Of a stretch of 37,052 nucleotides of DNA, positions 3,882 through 34,863 are shown piece by piece. A program made the position numbers and the translations under genes. Each line of letters opens with the position of its first letter. Position 1 is the first letter of the stretch. A model generated the notes under the pieces. The model had not been told where the DNA came from. It was given only the letters and a program-made list of their open reading frames with translations, and did no database searches. Source of the stretch: a virus; IMG/VR virus record IMGVR_UViG_3300024520_000231, positions 1 to 37,052 of that record; one strand, given 5' to 3'.

Positions 3882-4133
3882 TTATTTAGCTTTTTTTTTG
3901 ATTGTTTTCTTCTTAGAAGAAGATTTTTTTAAAGAGACTTTCTTTTTTTTTATTTCTTTTGGCTCAATAGTAATAATTTCTATCTCTTTATTTTCTTTCT
4001 TATCTACATTATAATCTTTTTCAAATTCACTTCAATCTAATTTTAAATATTTTTCTTTATAGTCAGGCTCTTTTTCTAGTTCTACTAATATTCGTTTCTT
4101 AGAAAGCTTTCTAAGCAATACTTCTTTAGTCAT
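3882..4133 (-). CDS. Highly basic small protein, unknown
   Basis: An 83-residue protein. The first two thirds are charged and helical (LLRKLSKKRILVELEKEPDY), followed by an acidic stretch. It ends in a tail of about 25 residues made almost only of Lys and Ser. The tail recalls histone-like or internal DNA-binding tails, but there is no recognisable domain. Upstream lies the AT-rich leader TTTTTTAACC used by many genes here, about 10 bases before the ATG, and just beyond it a terminator-like hairpin that may separate this gene from the coiled-coil gene upstream. Confidence 0.6.
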
Positions 4134-4143
4134 ATATATGTGG

Positions 4144-4187
4144 TTAAAAAATAATTTCAGTTGAACGGAGGAATTTATCCCCCGTTC
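4144..4187 (-). terminator. Rho-independent terminator-like hairpin
   Basis: Arms GAACGG (4163-4168) and CCGTTC (4182-4187) pair perfectly, with a further GGA/TCC step inside. Read on the minus strand the hairpin is followed by ATTATTTTTTAA. It lies just after the stop of the 74-residue gene. Confidence 0.6.
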
Positions 4188-4194
4188 TCAAAAA

Positions 4195-4419
4195 CTACTT
4201 TTTCTTTTCTTCTTTTTCAGGAGCTTCTTCACCTAATAGGTCAAGAACTTCCTTGAAAGACCCCTGAATTCGTAGTTGTCACTCTCTGATTGCTGAAAGT
4301 CTTTTATTGATTTCCTTTCATTGAGCAATAAGTTTTTCTTGTTCTTCTGCTAATGAATTGAACTCAAGCTCAAGAGCTTCCTTTCTTTCTTTGAGTTTTA
4401 CCTTTACGTCATCTGACAT
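4195..4419 (-). CDS. Small coiled-coil protein, unknown
   Basis: A 74-residue, highly charged protein with heptad-like spacing from about residue 7 to 55 (LKERKEALELEFNSLAEEQ), then an acidic and lysine-rich tail. A single coiled coil is the likely structure. It is encoded between the 861-residue repetitive protein and a terminator hairpin, among virion genes, so it may be a small structural or assembly chaperone. Two of its three glycines are TGA. No family was recognised. The leader upstream is AT-rich without a Shine-Dalgarno site. Confidence 0.6.
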
Positions 4420-8341: not shown

Positions 8342-8397
8342 AATATATAAAATAAAAAAATAAATTCCTAGCTTTTTTAGATTATACTTATATCTAG

Positions 8398-8988
8398 CTA
8401 TATAAGATTATCCATCAGATTAGAACCATCTATATTCATCTTAGATTTATATGCTTGATATTCTTTATCATTCATATTCATCACAGATTTACGTTCAGAT
8501 TCTTTTTTAGGTGTAATTTCACCCACAATTTCAGGCATTTTTGCTTTCTTTATCTTAGTAACATCATATAAACCATATGAGTCGATTACGTCTTCCCATG
8601 AGTTTTTATTTGTTTTAAGACCTCTCAGTACTTTTTCATATTTTCATAACTCTGGATTTGCAGCTAATATATCTCTTAATTCTATTTCTTCGTTAGCTTT
8701 TTGTGAATAACTTTTTAAGTCTTCCATAGTAGGAAAGCCTAAGTCTTTCATAGAACTAATTATATCTTGCTGATCCTTAGTTAAATCTTTAGCCTTCTCG
8801 TTACTTCCAAGTTTTTCATAGTCAGATAATTTTTGGCTTTTCTTAGTAAACTCTTTTTGTAAGTTATTATAAGAGTCCAGTAATTTATCTGCTGTCATAT
8901 CTTGTCCGTTAACACTAAATGTTTGTCAATCAGTTTGTTCTGCGGAATCCTTTACAGGTTGTTCCTGTGAATCTGTTTGATCTGTCAT
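8398..8988 (-). CDS. Putative capsid scaffolding protein
   Basis: A 196-residue protein, strongly charged and mostly helical. It has a Gln/Ser-rich start (MTDQTDSQEQP), a central coiled-coil segment (LLDSYNNLQKEFTKKSQKL), a basic section and a Met/Asn-rich end. Its position between portal and major capsid genes and its composition match phage scaffolding proteins, which guide procapsid assembly and leave before or during packaging. There is no sequence motif to prove it, as scaffold families diverge quickly. The start at 8988 was preferred over an out-of-frame ATG five bases upstream. Confidence 0.75.
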
Positions 8989-9031
8989 ATCATAAAAATT
9001 AATAATAAATTAGGGATTACCCCAACACAAC

Positions 9032-9047
9032 ACTAGGACAAGCTAGT
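9032..9047. other. Short inverted repeat in a non-coding gap
   Basis: ACTAG (9032-9036) and CTAGT (9043-9047) flank a 6-base spacer, nested in a weaker CACT/AGTG pairing. The gap 8989-9108 holds no gene that I can support. The repeat may be an RNA hairpin between scaffold and upstream genes; there is no T-run. Confidence 0.3.
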
Positions 9048-9108
9048 AACCCAGTGCTGAATAAGAGCAATTCCTTTAAACATCATGAATGTTAATGAAC
9101 TATAATAA

Positions 9109-9389: not shown

Positions 9390-11246
9390 TTATAATCATT
9401 CTGTTATTCAGCCTTCTGCCACAGCTTCTGTGGTTTTAGCTGCTTGTGTCGACTTTGTCTCAGGTTGTTTGATTTGTTGTCATCATGGTACTCATAGTCA
9501 TGATCTTGTCAATTCTTCTATTATGTCCGTTTTGACTGGTTTAATAAATCTATTAACATCACGTTTTTCAAATGTTCCTACTACATCTTTAAATGCTTCT
9601 TCTAGGTCTACATCTATACCAGCTCATTTAGCTTGAAGTGAAGCGTTAAAGAATGCTATAGCATCTTCTCGTCTAGCATCTAAATCAGTGAAACTTGAAC
9701 TATTAGCTTCTACTTTAATAGAGTATCTAGTTATAGCATCTCTCTGAAGTTCTTTATTTATTTCCCAGAATCATTCATCTCATAGTTTTTTAATAACTAT
9801 ATTCTTATCCATATTTTCAAATGTAGCTTCTAATAATTTTAAAGCTAATTCTTCCATTCATTTTTCGAAGTGTTTTCTTAATTCATTCATAACAGCATTA
9901 GATTCAAAGAATTTAATTCTTGCTCATGTAGCTGTATTAGTTAAAGCTTGTTGACTAGTAGGTTGTGCAGTATCTACAGTAAAAGTTAATCATTGAATTT
10001 GTTTTTCTATATCATTTTGTTCAGCAAAGTAATCATTAGTTAGAGGTCTTTGAGGTAATTCAATTAAATTATTTAATGCAGTAGCAGCATCTTTACTAGT
10101 AGGTATTACATTTCATGGTTTAGAAACTAAGTCAGCTGGATTAACTCAACTATTTCTAGACCAAATCCAAGTTCTATTTAATGAAGAATTTATATATTCA
10201 GACGCTGAATTCTTTTTGAAATTAAGTTCTTCTTGTAAACTTATTATAGGTTCTACTAATCAGTTAGCAAAATATAATTCAGGATCATCAAAAGCTTTTA
10301 TATCCACAAATGGAATTTGAGCTATTTCTTTCATACCTATTACAAATATATCTTGTACAGTAGTTATTTCCATAAGTCTTTCTTCTTCTGGATCATCTGT
10401 TTCATTAAAGATTCAGTAAAACGTTTTAATAGCTAAAGAATTTTTATCTATAGGTGATTCTAAATCAGTCACAGGGATTCAAGCTAATTGACGTATTTGA
10501 TTAATATAATGTGTTCTATCTGATTCAAATAAACTTTGATCAGGTAAATTTTTAAGTTTATCTAGATTAAAAAATTCATCACGTCTTATTAAATCTGATA
10601 ACCTAACTCATTCAGTTATTTCTATAACAGCAGGCATATCTGACATGGTTTTAAACTTAGGATCTACATAAATATTAGTCCAACTCTTAACATCTATAGT
10701 TGGATATTCTCATATAACCTTTTCACGTACTTTAGTTTTAGTTTCTCAATCAACATTAATTTGTTCAGGGATTCTAGACATTTCATACTTAAATTTAATC
10801 TTAGCATATGAGTTTCAATATATAAGCATATTCTTAGCCCATAATCTTAGTACTTCATCTAGTCTATATTCATCAAATATATATGATAAATAATCCTGGA
10901 TTCACTTTGACCAGAATGACAACTTGTCTAATTTGTCTAATCTTTCTTGGGGTGTAGCTTTTTTATCATTAGCATCAAACTCATCTGTTCTAGGTGTAAC
11001 TATCCATCTAGGATTCTTAGCTACTATTCTAGGTAAAACCTTTTCTACTACTTCATAAGCCTTATTAACTTTAAATCTAGTCATCCAATCTCTTTCTCAT
11101 TGATGTGTCTTAAACGTAGAATAAGCCTCATAAACGTCAACCATTCTAGACCTATACTCATCAGATAGTTCTACATATGTATCGAATGTTTCTTTGACGG
11201 TCATTAAAGCCTTTTCTTGGATTTCCAAGTCAGGTGCTTTTGCCAT
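9390..11246 (-). CDS. Portal protein
   Basis: A 618-residue protein of the length and style of podovirus portals. The N-terminal helical region is followed by YGNSYAKIKFKYEM near residue 145, WTNIYVDP near 190 and the stem or clip region; late helices (residues about 430 to 520) carry NTATGARIKFFESNA, and the C-terminal tail is low-complexity. The dodecameric portal forms the DNA channel at one vertex, binds terminase during packaging and then the adaptor encoded at 23993-24655. The order terminase, portal, scaffold, coat supports the call. I checked the whole frame and found no TAA or TAG inside it. Confidence 0.85.
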
Positions 11247-24752: not shown

Positions 24753-24780
24753 TTGACAACATATTTAAATGTGATAAACT
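24753..24780 (+). promoter_or_regulatory. Rightward early promoter
   Basis: TTGACA (24753-24758), a 16-bp spacer and TAAACT (24775-24780), 33 bases before the PrsW-like gene. The preceding AAAAAAGTA also occurs in front of the promoter at 30640. Confidence 0.7.
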
Positions 24781-24813: not shown

Positions 24814-25308
24814 ATGTACACAATACTATTTACATTAATATTAACTGGAATGTTTTTAGAAATATCTATAGATTATACCAATTTAATAACTTGATTTGAG
24901 TGATCTAATTATTTATTATATACTATAATATTTGCAGGTATAGAAGAATTAATAAAAATTTGTTGAGCATATATGGGAAAATCAACAAAAGAATTTGATG
25001 AATTATGAATATGTATAATTATATCATGTCTTACATTTGCTACATATGAGAACTTTTTATATTATCAACAATCATGAATGGAATTATTATTAATAAGATT
25101 ATTTCCTTGTACATTAATACATATATCTACATATATATTTTATAATGAATTTTGAAAGAAATGATTTTTGATTGCATTAATAATACATATTATGTATAAT
25201 TATTTCGTAGTATTAGAATGAATGATGTGAACAACTATGATTATAAGTTCTATTATTATATTAAATCCTAATATTATAAATTTTATTTTTAATAATAATT
25301 ATCAATAG
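24814..25308 (+). CDS. PrsW-like intramembrane protease
   Basis: A 164-residue multi-pass membrane protein and the first gene of the rightward unit. It shows the ordered motifs of the PrsW family: EELIK (residues 44-48), FATYENF (75-81), a histidine in LIHISTY (103) and a final HIMYNYF (125-131), each within or beside hydrophobic helices (about five segments). The conserved acidic and histidine residues are the proposed catalytic or metal site. Bacterial PrsW cleaves anti-sigma factors at the membrane. In a phage it could cut a host membrane regulator or process phage membrane proteins; this is inference. Eight TGA glycines. No signal peptide beyond the first helix. Confidence 0.7.
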
Positions 25309-25420: not shown

Positions 25421-25606
25421 ATGTTAAGAAGAAAAGAACACGCACATTTTCATAACGTATTTCAAAATATGACGTTTAATGAACAAATATCACATATATT
25501 ATCTATAAATAATCAATCCTTAATACCTGAACTTAAAGATTCTCTACAGGAAATACTTTGAAATTATGATATAGAAGATATATATAAAAAAGAATGTTTT
25601 AAATAA
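25421..25606 (+). CDS. Small protein, unknown
   Basis: A 61-residue protein (MLRRKEHAHFHNVFQNMTFN, ending KKECFK), helical, His/Asn-rich at the start and acidic toward the end. One glycine, encoded by TGA. It is in the early transcription unit with 23 bases to the next gene. Unknown function. Confidence 0.5.
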
Positions 25607-25629
25607 TTTTATTTTTTAATTTATTTCAC

Positions 25630-25902
25630 ATGTTAAATACAGATAAAGAAATAGAGACTCTTGACGCTATAGTAATGGAAGAAATTAATAATAGACTTCA
25701 TAAAATAAAACCTAAAGACATGGAATCATTTGAAGCCTTTAATATATTATCTTGTGAAGAATGATTTTTATATTATGCTATGCTTCAAATGGCTGATGAT
25801 AATAAAAATACCATCCTTACAGGACAAACACTAACAGAGATGTTAACTATAATTAGAAATGATCTTGAAAAAAAAGCTAAAAAATTTCTTGATTTAATTT
25901 AA
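25630..25902 (+). CDS. Small acidic helical protein, unknown
   Basis: A 90-residue protein (MLNTDKEIETLDAIVMEEIN, ending KKFLDLI), almost entirely helical, with a central aromatic patch (CEEGFLYYAML). One TGA and one GGA glycine. The leader TTTTATTTTTTAATTTATTTCACATG is of the standard phage type. It is followed by a structured non-coding stretch with a terminator at 26068. Function unknown. Confidence 0.55.
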
Positions 25903-25922
25903 TTTTTGAATAAAAATATTAC

Positions 25923-26068
25923 AGCCTTATTAAAAACCTAATGAAATCTTGTGTTTCCATTACGTTATAAAATAGCTTTAGTAAGGCTACTTAATCCTTC
26001 TGATCAGGGTGGTTACTGGTAATTAGGGCTGTAAGTTGCATTAATTCGCAATCTTATTGGCCCTTTTT
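25923..26068 (+). ncRNA. Structured RNA region ending in a terminator
   Basis: AGCCTTATTAAA (25923-25934) pairs with TTTAGTAAGGCT (25977-25988), 12 bp with one G-U; inside it TAATG/CATTA can form a second hairpin. Downstream CCTAAT/ATTAGG allows a long-range pairing. The element ends in a strong intrinsic terminator: AGGGC (26025-26029) with GCCCT (26060-26064), inner TAAG/CTTA and TGC/GCA, then TTTTT. It may be the structured 3' end of the preceding transcript or a separate small RNA; a promoter just upstream (TTGATT or TTGAAT with 16 bp) is weak. Confidence 0.5.
26025..26068 (+). terminator. Intrinsic terminator
   Basis: GGGC/GCCC outer stem with TAAG/CTTA and TGC/GCA inner stems and a T-run at 26064-26068. 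Confidence 0.75.
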
Positions 26069-26086
26069 ATTTTATTGAAAAAACTA

Positions 26087-26114
26087 TTGACTTTTGTTTT
26101 TTTTATGATAAACT
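26087..26114 (+). promoter_or_regulatory. Rightward promoter
   Basis: TTGACT (26087-26092), a 16-bp spacer and TAAACT (26109-26114), with the extension TGATAAACT shared with the promoter at 24753. Probable start near 26121. Confidence 0.65.
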
Positions 26115-26120
26115 ACTCTT

Positions 26121-26243
26121 GCAACATTAAATCACACTACATAGAGAATGTCTAATAAGCCTTGCGACAGCTTTTGTTGCAAACATTGATCAACTCGTAG
26201 TGTGGTTGATCCCTGTCGTAAGGCTTACTGGACATTTTATTTT
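26121..26243 (+). ncRNA. Highly structured leader or small RNA with possible pseudoknot
   Basis: Directly after a promoter: AATGTC (26147-26152) pairs with GACATT (26231-26236); 26156-26170 pairs with 26213-26227 over 15 continuous pairs (one G-U); GATCAAC (26188-26194) pairs with GTTGATC (26205-26211). The apical loop contains GTAGTGTG (26197-26204), fully complementary to CACACTAC upstream (26133-26140). A T-rich tail follows (TTTTATTTTTT), then the leader of the gene at 26258. This is either a free RNA or a terminator/antiterminator leader that controls the genes downstream. The overall design matches no family I know. Confidence 0.65.
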
Positions 26244-26257
26244 TTAACCATTTTTTT

Positions 26258-26515
26258 ATGATCAAGTTAGCAAGAAACGGTTCTTTTGAATATATCAAAG
26301 AAGCGTCTTGAAAAAAGATTACAGCAAAATATCTAAAGGAAAAAGATATATGCTTATATAGAACCCCACACTATTATAGGGTGGTTGTAAGGATTGAATG
26401 AGATGATGTTTATTACTTAGATGAAAAGGCATTCCCTTGAGTGTGTTCAAAGTCTCATTTTTGTCGTATGTGTCCCACTATTATTACTAAAGAAGAATTA
26501 CAATTCTTAGGGTAA
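26258..26515 (+). CDS. Small Cys-containing protein, unknown
   Basis: An 85-residue alpha/beta protein (MIKLARNGSFEYIKEASGKK). A beta segment (YYRVVVRIEGDDVYYLDE) is followed by three cysteines (VCSKSHFCRMCP), a partial zinc-knuckle-like cluster. Most glycines are TGA. It follows the structured RNA leader and has the TTTTTTAACC leader before its ATG. Function unknown; it is the gene most directly placed to be regulated by that RNA. Confidence 0.55.
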
Positions 26516-26539
26516 TATTTATTTTTTAACTTTTTTATT

Positions 26540-26851
26540 ATGGAAAATAATATCATTAAACTATGTAGCCTTTATATTAGGCTAAAAACTGATTGCGATA
26601 AAATAAATAGAATATTTCAATGAGATTATGATAATTATGAGTATTTAGACGATATAATATTAGATCTAATTTGATTTAAAGAGGATAATACAAATTCTGC
26701 TTATGACGAGAATTGAGAATTAAAGAAATGGCTAACTAAAAAAGATATATTCTGTAGAACAGAAATTCATGAGACAATGTGGGAAGTGACTAATAATTGA
26801 GGAAGTTGAGAAGATTTATATAAGACTCTAATATTACAAAAGAAAGGATAA
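26540..26851 (+). CDS. Small acidic protein, unknown
   Basis: A 103-residue acidic protein (MENNIIKLCSLYIRLKTDCD, ending ILQKKG). It has an aromatic/Asp-rich middle and a late Gly-rich turn (NNGGSGED), where two of three glycines are TGA. The leader is nearly identical to that of the next gene (TTTATTTTTTAACTTTT). Unknown family; it lies just before the replication initiator. Confidence 0.55.
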
Positions 26852-26875
26852 TATTTATTTTTTAACTTTTATATT

Positions 26876-27652
26876 ATGGAAAAAACAACATGAAAAATAA
26901 CTTCTAATGATTGAGGTTATATAGAGGAAAAACATTTATTTACATATAACGAAGAAGAAAAACAAGAGAATGAAATAAATAGAGAAAATGCTAAAAAGTA
27001 TTGTAAATATTTAACAATACCCAGATCTATTTTTGAATTATGATTATCTTGAAATGAAGCAATATTATATGCTTTTATGAGTAGTTGGATATGAGATTGA
27101 ACTAGGTTTTATTTTACAAATAATCAATTATCTAAATTATTTAATATTTCAATTGACACAATTACTAGAATAACTAAATCTTTATCAAAAAAATGATTAG
27201 TAGAACTAGGTTATAAAAGGAAGTCTAATTGATGACAAATTAGATTTATTAATATAAAAAGCCCACTCCTTAAAATAAGGAGTAGCAAATCCGCAAAATA
27301 CGGAGGAAGTATTAATAATATAAATAATAAAAAAGAAATATATAAAGAAAAAATAAAACAGGATGAAATTGAATGAATAGAAAATTTAGATAATTACGAG
27401 AAATGATTACTTCTTAGATTATATAAAGATTTTGATTATTCTCTCAACATGGATGATACAGAAACATATTCAGAATGGTTTAAACGGACTTTATGATATT
27501 TATATACACAAGCCTGAATCTTCGACATTCAAGCATTTAGGTTATTATATACCGAATGGAGAATGTATTATGTAGACAAATGAAAAGAAATTAAAAACCC
27601 AAGATCAAGTTTTAATAACTGGGTAAAAAATAGTTTATCATATAACAAATAA
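26876..27652 (+). CDS. Replication initiator with winged-helix domain
   Basis: A 258-residue protein. Residues about 47 to 115 form a winged helix of the HTH_36 / phage RepO-like type: IPRSIFELGLSGNEAILYAF, then FYFTNNQLSKLFNIS and TITRITKSLSKKGLVELG. A linker of charged and Asn-rich sequence follows, then a C-terminal helical domain (YSEWFKRTLGYLYTQAGIFD) like the helicase-loader part of phage initiators. The next gene, 3 bases on, is a DnaB-type helicase, the usual pairing of initiator and helicase. The coding sequence contains inverted repeats at 27265-27304, as in phages whose origin lies inside the initiator gene. Confidence 0.7.
27265..27304. other. Inverted repeats inside the initiator gene (candidate origin)
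   Basis: ACTCCTTA (27265-27272) and TAAGGAGT (27276-27283) form a perfect 8-bp inverted repeat with a 3-base centre; TCCG (27290-27293) and CGGA (27301-27304) follow. They sit in the linker region of the initiator, where lambda-like phages carry the origin. Confidence 0.45.
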
Positions 27653-27655
27653 ATT

Positions 27656-28777
27656 ATGGAACACTTACAACACCAAAAATATTTAATATCATGATACTTA
27701 CAAGAATGAGTTCATGATAAAAATCTAGAACCAGAATTGTTTGGATCTTATAAAAACGCTTATATTTTTATGAGAGATAACTGAGTAAGTATACAGCCAG
27801 AATTAACTAAACAGTTTAAATGAAACTCATATGAAATAGCCGAACTATGGAAAGATAATTATAATGCTACGTTCTTTTTACATAAGGATTATTATATAAA
27901 AAAACTAAACGAGTGGTATGCTGGAGAAAAATTTAAGAATATTACAGATACAACAGTTAAAATAAATAAGATGCAAAAGTTTTTAGATAAGGTTAACGTA
28001 AAGAAAACTAAAGATATATGACATATAACTGACGCTATAAATCAATTCAATACACAACAAGAAAAAATAAAAAAAATATGAAGACTATGAATTTGTAGCC
28101 CTTTTCCTTGTTTAGATAAAATAACACAATGAATTATATCTTGAAAAGTTTATACAATATGATGATTCAGTAATTTATGAAAATCAAAGTTATCATATCA
28201 TTATGCTAGCCACTTTATTAGTAAATGACATAAGGTTTTATACTTTAGTTTAGAAGTAGAGAAATGGCTAGTTTTAGCTAATATAATGGCATCATTTTAT
28301 GAATTAGATTATTCTGATGTAATAAATAACATAACCCCAGATAAAGATGATTTTGAAAACTTAAAAATTTATCAAAATATATTTAATTTACGTGAAATTG
28401 TAAGCATTATAAAAGAACAAAAGGCAGATATAGTTTTTATAGATTTTATACAAAATGTAAAAGCAGACTGAAATAGTGAATATGAAAGGTTAACTAATGC
28501 TGCACAAGATATACAAAAAGCTGCAATTGAATCTTGAAGTACGATATTTAGCTTATCACAGGTTAATAACGAAAGCAGATTTAAATGATGATCTAATGTT
28601 ATGCTTAAATGATCTTGATCAATATTTGCGTCAAGTGATGTTATTTTAGTATTATACAAAGACTCAGAATTAAAATTAACAATAGCAAAAAATAAATTCT
28701 GAGAAGCCTGAGTTAATTTTTTAGTCAATGTTGATTACAAAAAAAACATATTTAAACTATCAAAAGAGACGATTTAA
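27656..28777 (+). CDS. dnaB: Replicative helicase, DnaB type
   Basis: A 373-residue RecA-fold helicase. P-loop GGFSNLGKS lies at residues 169-177 with three TGA glycines (two adjacent at 28160-28165). Walker B is DIVFIDFIQN near 265, followed by the Q-type motif GSTIFSLSQVNNESR, and later FASSDVILVLY and NKFGEAG, all expected for DnaB/GP4 helicases. The N-terminal 140 residues are a shortened, divergent primase-interaction domain. It should unwind phage DNA as a hexamer, loaded by the initiator encoded just upstream. No polymerase gene is present. Confidence 0.92.
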
Positions 28778-28862
28778 GAGACTTTATAAAGAAAATGGAT
28801 ATAGATAAAGGTAAAGAAGTTTAGTGTGCTTAAATAGCTAAATAACAACGATTAAAATCAAA

Positions 28863-28964
28863 ATGGGTAACACATGCGAATCGTGATTAGAAAATAAATC
28901 CCATTATATATTTTATAACTTAATGTCAAGCTTATATGAAAATAATAATAACTGATCATTTTAA
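28863..28964 (+). CDS. Possible small peptide
   Basis: A 33-residue frame (MGNTCESGLENKSHYIFYNL start) with two TGA codons, overlapping the next gene by 29 bases. It is too short for confidence; the 28778-28862 stretch before it holds nothing else I can support. Confidence 0.25.
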
Positions 28965-33691: not shown

Positions 33692-33997
33692 ATGTTTTCA
33701 GAAGAGCATGGTGACTTCATAGACCTACTATGAAAAAAGAAAGATCTAAAATGATTATTAATACAAAAAAAACTTATTGATTTTGTTACAACTAAAAAAA
33801 ATAGTGAACGATTAGAAAAGTTGAATATAAAAATTCAATTAACCATTAAAGAAGTCTCTAAAGATATTAATATATTAACCCAACTTCTTTGAAAAACTAT
33901 AACAGAAATTAATAATAATACGAATGATTCAACAGAATTACTTGAATTACAGTATATAAGGAATGAAATATTATTTATATTACATAGATCTTATTAA
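33692..33997 (+). CDS. Helical coiled-coil protein, unknown
   Basis: A 101-residue protein (MFSEEHGDFIDLLGKKKDLK), helical and charged throughout, likely coiled coil from about residue 20 to 70. Three of four glycines are TGA. It is the last gene of the rightward unit; its TAA (33995-33997) overlaps the stop of the convergent lysin gene (33994-33996). Function unknown. Confidence 0.55.
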
Positions 33998-34863
33998 TCA
34001 TCTAATAAACCAAGTCTATCTAATATTCACATAAACTGCCCTCTAGTTAATCAATCATTAGGCTTAAATGATCAATCTTGAAATCATTTAACTATTCATT
34101 TGTGTTTAGCCTTTTTAATAGCTTTAGCAAAAGGTTGACCTTCGTCTACGTCTTTAAATATCATATTGTGTTTTTGATTAAAAAATAAATATCAGTATTC
34201 AAAAAATACTCAATTCTGAATTAACTCCTTGAAGTACTTTAATGTATATATGTTAAACTTAACTAATCCAGTGTAGTTGTCTATTACTTGTATCGTAAAT
34301 AAATTATTAACACCTTGTGAAAGCTTTGTTGAAAACTTTTTTCTTATACGTACAGCATGTGAATAAGTTGTTCTTCAAAACTTTGTTCAACCTAGTACTC
34401 AATCATCATTTTTATCTTTATTGTAATTTGAATTACCGTTATATCAACACATAACACTATGTCATGAATTTAATATAGACATAAGATCTTCTCACAATAA
34501 TTTAATTCTATAAGTACTAAGTTTATCATTATTTATATCATTCCATTCTTTACGTACTAAATCAACTGCTTTATAAAAATACCACCCTTGATAAGGATCA
34601 GCTCACAAATCTATAGCTTTTCTCCATATTTCTTTAAGTTCGTTTCTTTTATAATTATATCTAGTTAAATCACTAATACATCATATAGCAGCCATTATAG
34701 TACAACAATAATTTCAAATAAGTTTTTGATTATATTCTATAGGTTCTAATTTATTACCATTACGTATTTCAAATTTAGTAGATGAATCAGTATTACCTCA
34801 AAATATATAATCTTTATAACTAGTTTTCTTAATCAATCATCAATATTTTATAGGGGCTTCCAT
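33994..34863 (-). CDS. Lysin: C39-like peptidase domain with C-terminal SLH domain
   Basis: A 289-residue protein. Residues about 40 to 200 have the layout of C39-like papain-fold peptidases: NYCCTIMAAIGC at 51-62 (candidate Cys 53 or 54), YSHAVRI with His 169, and VIDNYTG with Asp 195 or Asn 196. Residues 239 to 289 are one SLH (S-layer homology) domain: FAKAIKKAKHKGIVKGFQDG, then SFKPNDGLTRGQF. Four SLH glycines are TGA. SLH domains bind secondary cell-wall polymers, so this looks like an endolysin that cuts cross-bridges while anchored to the wall. It ends the late unit, after small membrane proteins, as expected. No signal peptide is seen, so holin-dependent release is likely. Confidence 0.75.

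Follow-up and report, generated by a model that had tools for sequence, protein, structure and literature searches.

A structured leader in front of the replication operon

The window, by which we mean the whole 37,052-nucleotide stretch analysed here, is a 37-kb IMG/VR phage record in which TGA is read as glycine (code 25). Structural genes (terminase, portal and capsid) run leftward, and a short early operon running rightward holds a DnaD-like initiator and a DnaB-like helicase. The region in front of this operon (25903–26257) is intergenic under code 25 and contains the leader; the order is promoter, leader, two small genes, initiator and helicase. The window gave neither a Phage_integrase nor a Resolvase match. 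On the minus strand, 33994–34863 encodes a phage protein that includes an S-layer homology domain. The features of the locus are as follows.

25919–26063 (+): upstream attenuator-like module, in which TTACAGCC (25919–25926) pairs with GGGCTGTAA (26026–26034) in the growing RNA
26087–26114 (+): promoter-like site TTGACT-16-TGaTAAACT, sigma70-type with an extended -10 (TG before the -10), a consensus match only
26119–26126 (+): 5' leader segment TTGCAACA, exact complement of side-loop TGTTGCAA, overlapping the predicted start at 26121
26133–26140 (+): segment A, CACACTAC, exact complement of apical-loop GTAGTGTG
26145–26170 (+): 5' arm of the long hairpin, paired with 26213–26238 (RNAfold)
26175–26182 (+): TGTTGCAA, side loop of the same hairpin, which pairs with 26119–26126 or, in the growing RNA, with 26162–26169 (TTGCGACA)
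26188–26211 (+): apical hairpin of 7–8 bp (26188–26195 with 26204–26211)
26197–26204 (+): segment A', GTAGTGTG, in the apical loop, exact complement of CACACTAC
26213–26238 (+): 3' arm of the long hairpin (RNAfold)
26235–26245 (+): U-rich tail TTTTATTTTTT, terminator-like, overlapping a recurring gene-leader motif
26258–26515 (+): first operon gene, 85 aa, no family found
26366–26373 (+): candidate second target CCACACTA within the first gene, complementary to the loop over 8 bases (p about 0.009 per 250-base stretch)
26540–26851 (+): second operon gene, 103 aa, no family found
26876–27652 (+): replication initiator/DnaD-like helicase loader (HTH_36, 2e-6; phrog_428, 1.8e-7; phrog_186, 2.8e-6)
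27656–28777 (+): DnaB-like replicative helicase (phrog_19, 7.5e-38; DnaB_C, 4.5e-17)

The promoter-like site predicts a transcription start at 26121, in agreement with a preliminary description of this DNA that placed a structured RNA directly after a promoter. The span given there opens at the predicted +1, and the promoter and the second target fall outside it. A twin site, TTGACA-16-TGaTAAACT, is found at 24753–24780, and two such sites are more than expected by chance (matched in 4 of 100 shuffles). Beneath the twin site lies a gene for a PrsW-family intramembrane protease (24814–25308).

RNA beginning at 26121 folds to -43.3 kcal/mol, against -22.3 +/- 3.2 kcal/mol for shuffled sequences (z = -6.6; 0 of 200 as good). 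With folding strength corrected for composition by regression, the leader is among the two most strongly folded 120-base stretches of the window and its relatives. The interrupted long stem described earlier is present, with 25 pairs in RNAfold (10 + 15 around one mismatch) instead of 21, and the 7-bp apical stem recurs at 7–8 bp. The 8-base upstream segment was correctly recognized as an exact complement of the apical loop; neither 8-mer occurs elsewhere in the window. A second 8-base complement, between TTGCAACA and TGTTGCAA, had been overlooked. A start at 26121 would leave only GCAACA of TTGCAACA within the RNA. The earlier judgement that the loop complement is unlikely by chance is borne out, since the two complements jointly arise in about 1–3 per 10,000 random controls (p = 3e-4 against the shuffled leader and 1e-4 against 30-mers of the same genome).

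The stable hairpin ends at 26238 and runs directly into a U-rich tract, as in an intrinsic terminator, and the coding gene follows at 26258 as previously described. A simple terminator scanner, which admits at most 20 pairs and loops of at most 8 bases, did not list this long hairpin. The motif TTTATTTTTTAAC within the tail is likewise present at 26518 and 26854, ahead of the start codons of the following genes, where there is no strong hairpin. Hence, the tail alone is no proof of a terminator, and the hairpin might not terminate, since its tail resembles a translation-leader motif of other genes. Next to the tail, the outer portion of the hairpin is moreover rich in A-U, which counts against an attenuator reading. 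The motif itself occurs on the plus strand at 25608, 26236, 26518 and 26854 and elsewhere in the window, about 10–13 bases before start codons and more often than chance (26 against 13.9 expected). It may replace the Shine-Dalgarno sequence in this code-25 phage. A further hairpin, of -45 kcal/mol per 120 bases, lies between two late-operon genes (4063–4262, minus strand) and is followed by ATTATTTTTTAACC.

Database searches returned nothing resembling the leader. Rfam gave no match to it even at E <= 10, nor to the ten related loci described below; blastn against annotated phages found no match to it, and the pattern CACACTAC-N30..60-GTAGTGTG had 55 matches in IMG/VR, none with this architecture. 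The Rfam scan of the window and its relatives yielded only two tRNAs, both at other loci. In the relative L096, a tRNA match at 10898–11028 spreads the whole 71-position model over 131 bases and may hold an insertion of about 60 bases, possibly an intron.

Competing folds in the growing RNA

To mimic transcription, the RNA was folded at increasing lengths. The loop pairing extends to 11 bp (26130–26140 with 26197–26207; -14.3 kcal/mol). For nascent RNA ending at 26206–26215, the MFE structure contains this extended A:A' helix together with TTGCGACA paired to TGTTGCAA. In the complete leader the hairpin prevails, at -43.3 against -27.4 kcal/mol when A:A' is forced, a gap of about 16 kcal/mol. 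Because both draw on the bases of the apical stem's 3' arm, that stem and the extended A:A' pairing are mutually exclusive. In the computed folds, an exclusive alternative helix forms earlier in transcription than the hairpin, and the layout so modelled, a terminator preceded by a rival helix, is that of a transcription attenuator.

The attenuator-like module upstream is built along similar lines. Its competing terminator, GGGC...GCCC at 26025–26063, is followed by TTTTTATTTT, giving a tandem arrangement with the main leader.

Replication leaders of related phages

Plain homology searches with the leader gave nothing, and relatives were therefore sought by portal and helicase alignments. This identified ten further, distant code-25 phages with the same initiator–helicase neighbourhood, in each of which the leader sequence is unrelated. 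The leaders share no alignable sequence and no common fold at this locus, and close homologues fit for base-by-base covariation were not found. Searching with the proteins of the first gene and of the unaligned helicase returned no relatives, nor did genome-contig scans. One weak match from comparing the leader DNA with 17 related phage records (L080) lay in coding sequence and was discarded, and L108 (GC 55%, standard code) was left out. The pairing elements of the ten leaders are listed below.

G019: AAGTCAGACC complementary to terminator loop GGTCTGACTT
G016: GGGTGGT complementary to loop ACCACCC
G017: ACAATCCTTGC complementary to GCAAGGATTGT
G003: CCCAGCCA complementary to TGGCTGGG
L095: GTCGTGTT complementary to AACACGAC
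L096: GGTCGCCAA complementary to TTGGCGACC
L103: GCGAGCAA complementary to TTGCTCGC
L097: crossing helices of 11 and 10 bp within the terminator stem, and one more copy lying downstream
L098: loop ATGTCTTCATGT; its complement occurs twice, right ahead of the initiator gene
L101: crossing helix pair before the terminator; does not pass the simple loop test and counts only as a pseudoknot variant

The preliminary description had staked its case on homologues keeping the loop and the upstream segment paired; the relatives retain complementarity, which speaks in its favour. L103 and L101 were examined after the prediction had been set: the former fits exactly, the latter as a variant only. L097, L098 and L101 depart from the simple layout, a point against the attenuator reading. 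Five leaders (those of the window, G017, G003, L096 and L103) hold A:A' fully in the MFE structure of the nascent RNA, and four of these five refold to the terminator-like hairpin at full length. In G019, L095 and G016, segment A sits in a hairpin loop or stem and A:A' is absent from the nascent MFE, which counts against the attenuator reading as well; because segment A of G019 and L095 lies in the loop of the preceding hairpin, contact there would be loop-to-loop. Extra downstream targets number two copies in L098, one in L097 and one in the window (p 0.009), and among the relatives a clear downstream second site was found in L097 and L098 only.

Complements of 7–10 bases between loop and upstream leader are present in eight of nine terminator-like leaders; of 72 mismatched pairs, 7 have one and not a single pair attains 8, the hairpins in this comparison having been picked by eye. 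Loops match their own leaders over 8, 10, 7, 9, 8, 8, 9, 8 and 3 bases, and the leaders of other phages over a mean of 4.8 and a maximum of 7 (72 pairs); the combined shuffle p for the complements is 2e-9. An automatic scan of hairpins before U-tracts gave 6 of 10 against 54 of 386 (p = 0.001), with some loops mis-assigned, and a strict automated version failed to pick up the hairpins of several leaders. An initial loop-complement scan, which scored AT-rich words within large loops, proved too permissive, and an energy-based test was substituted.

A scan for alternative helices took the 200 bases up to the first start codon and asked for a strong perfect helix missing from the MFE structure. 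All 11 replication leaders, the window included, have such a helix; in the background it appears in 18 of 600 stretches (p = 3e-16) and, among those that fold strongly, in 9 of 102 (p = 3e-10). The ends of the stretches were set by us, and the background set also takes in sequence that is not a promoter leader. For L103 the helix counted is the terminator, the MFE structure holding A:A'.

Two further observations concern these genomes at large. Tyrosine integrases are encoded in two of the ten relatives (L098, 3686–4660; G022, 58588–59115), one of them immediately ahead of the replication leader, which raises the possibility that some members of this group are temperate. A strong intergenic hairpin precedes the scaffold-position gene in the window (8989–9108, minus strand) and in many relatives. 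In L061, L062, L063, L067 and L078 it lies about 300 bases past the portal gene; with a similar loop (CCATAGC in several) and altered stems, it is a candidate conserved RNA.

A proposed attenuator, its alternatives and known systems

We consider it likely that the leader is an attenuator governed by RNA–RNA pairing. In the mechanism we propose, the leader (26121–26245) would control the replication operon through its mutually exclusive helices. While polymerase is within the leader, A would pair with A' and block the apical stem, favouring read-through into initiator and helicase. When A is unavailable, A' would fold into its own hairpin and seed the 25-pair hairpin, which with the U-rich tail would stop transcription. 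Each terminated leader would present A' in a stable loop and could mask A on the nascent transcript that follows. With more phage copies there would be more leader RNA and hence less initiator and helicase, as with the CI RNA of P4. Such action of the terminated leader back in trans is put forward tentatively, with a chance just short of even; a trans-acting terminated leader is the most economical competitor and would explain the extra downstream targets. The complete reading, a self-pairing attenuator of the replication operon with leader RNA as competitor, we hold to be evenly poised. The same device recurs at this position in ten relatives whose sequences differ entirely, and for this reason the leader is probably an RNA switch that sets the amount of replication machinery. 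Sequence-independent conservation of this kind is unusual support.

The same refolding could serve an attenuator that acts in cis only, its switching decided by kinetics or by a controlling factor (initiator protein, ribosome, host factor or polymerase pausing), with no effect on other transcripts. Passage from the early to the late fold accounts for A and A' without an RNA in trans, and the module just upstream has a classical antiterminator layout. However, the extra downstream targets of L097, L098 and the window would have no role, and display of a perfect loop complement is unusual for an attenuator controlled by protein or ribosome. Neither a leader-peptide gene nor a conserved ligand-binding core was seen, and we regard this alternative as rather unlikely.

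The preliminary description left the choice between a switch and a stable pseudoknot. The former is upheld by a logic kept in ten relatives of unrelated sequence. A double pseudoknot, in which the 5' strand docks on the side and apical loops and the compact RNA protects mRNA or binds protein, would make use of both separate 8-base complements, and the complements of L097 and L101 do cross in H-type fashion. It is nonetheless improbable and less likely than alternative pairing: the 11-bp A:A' helix takes up the 3' arm of the apical stem, segment A lies only 4 bases from the base of the long stem yet would have to reach the tip of the complete hairpin, and what relatives preserve is complementarity to a terminator-like loop, not one fold. 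From these folds, 'pseudoknot' is probably the wrong word.

Inverted 8-mers near a promoter and adjoining initiator and helicase genes might also be a DNA element, either repressor operators or part of an origin. This is very unlikely, as the repeats fall exactly in hairpin loops, 48–56 bases from their partners, CACACTAC does not recur, a search of 25600–28900 found no iterons, and loop placement stays constant in relatives whose sequences differ. Slightly more remote still is plasmid-style control by an antisense RNA from the opposite strand (pT181, pIP501): it has the same logic of rep-leader attenuation, with two loop pairs as in pIP501 (PMC4981023), but a consensus scan of the minus strand over 25830–27300 found no promoter-like site, and the self-complement renders a counter-transcript unnecessary. 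An ordinary intergenic hairpin, serving as terminator or mRNA stabiliser with a fortuitous loop complement, is hardly credible even though strong intergenic hairpins that lack such complements do occur elsewhere in this phage group, since the complement is well beyond chance at this locus and in relatives. A ligand-binding riboswitch was also considered and is unlikely, the relatives sharing neither sequence nor fold and having no Rfam match.

To our knowledge, almost nothing is known about how phages of recoded, uncultured CPR bacteria control their genes. The pairing attenuator may extend, although we hold this with some doubt, to a class of auto-antisense attenuators that is lineage-wide and sequence-free among code-25 phages of the Absconditabacteria/Gracilibacteria type, where the terminated leader would be the inhibitor, acting through its terminator loop on the 5' ends of new transcripts with a pairing 'word' that differs per phage. 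If so, each phage would have its own dosage-control or superinfection specificity. Only complementarity is kept, so ordinary RNA-family searches are blind to such elements; the alternative-helix test detects them and is easily applied to other phages. Moreover, the leader is noncoding and can hence be tested in Escherichia coli or in vitro without the uncultured host.

The c4 antisense RNA of P1/P7 (Rfam RF01695) likewise has two loop segments that can pair with two segments in the leader of its own transcript. It governs an antirepressor operon and is not known to govern replication genes, and differs in that neither the window leader nor the ten related loci match Rfam. Plasmid pIP501 attenuates transcription in its rep leader by a counter-transcript, with loop pairing in control (PMC4981023). 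The likeness to pT181 and pIP501 is premature termination in the leader of a replication initiator under loop pairing; there the regulator is counter-transcribed, whereas here the transcript carries its own complement and the consensus scan showed no promoter-like site on the antisense strand.

By analogy, the closest known mechanism is that of P4 CI RNA, which pairs with upstream and downstream leader sites and stops P4's own replication genes (PMC4825925). In both, an untranslated leader lies between promoter and replication genes, and a hairpin loop (like seqB of the P4 order seqA - CI/seqB - seqC) is complementary to an upstream segment (seqA-like) and, in some members (clearly in L097 and L098, with a candidate in the window), to a downstream one (seqC-like). 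The proposed outcome is premature termination in each case (PMC4825925), and our alternative-helix scan is also positive in the P4 leader (record positions 8351–8550). The earlier label of a novel phage riboregulator is thus fair for a new example, with P4 CI RNA as known precedent. There are differences. The window phage is a full phage without a recognized integrase, whereas P4 is a satellite; here the terminator-like hairpin carries the complement in its own loop; the two also differ in host and genetic code; and neither Rfam covariance models nor blastn detected homology to P4 CI or c4 RNA. A role in lysogeny is unsupported in the window, where neither integrase nor resolvase was detected, and integrase is found in only two of the ten relatives. 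The resemblance to P4 would thus be one of mechanism, the role probably being replication dosage and not lysogeny. Since the pairing logic is all that the two have in common, their origins appear to be independent. If our reading is correct, replication genes in these phages are ruled by an RNA that reads itself, as in the satellite phage P4.
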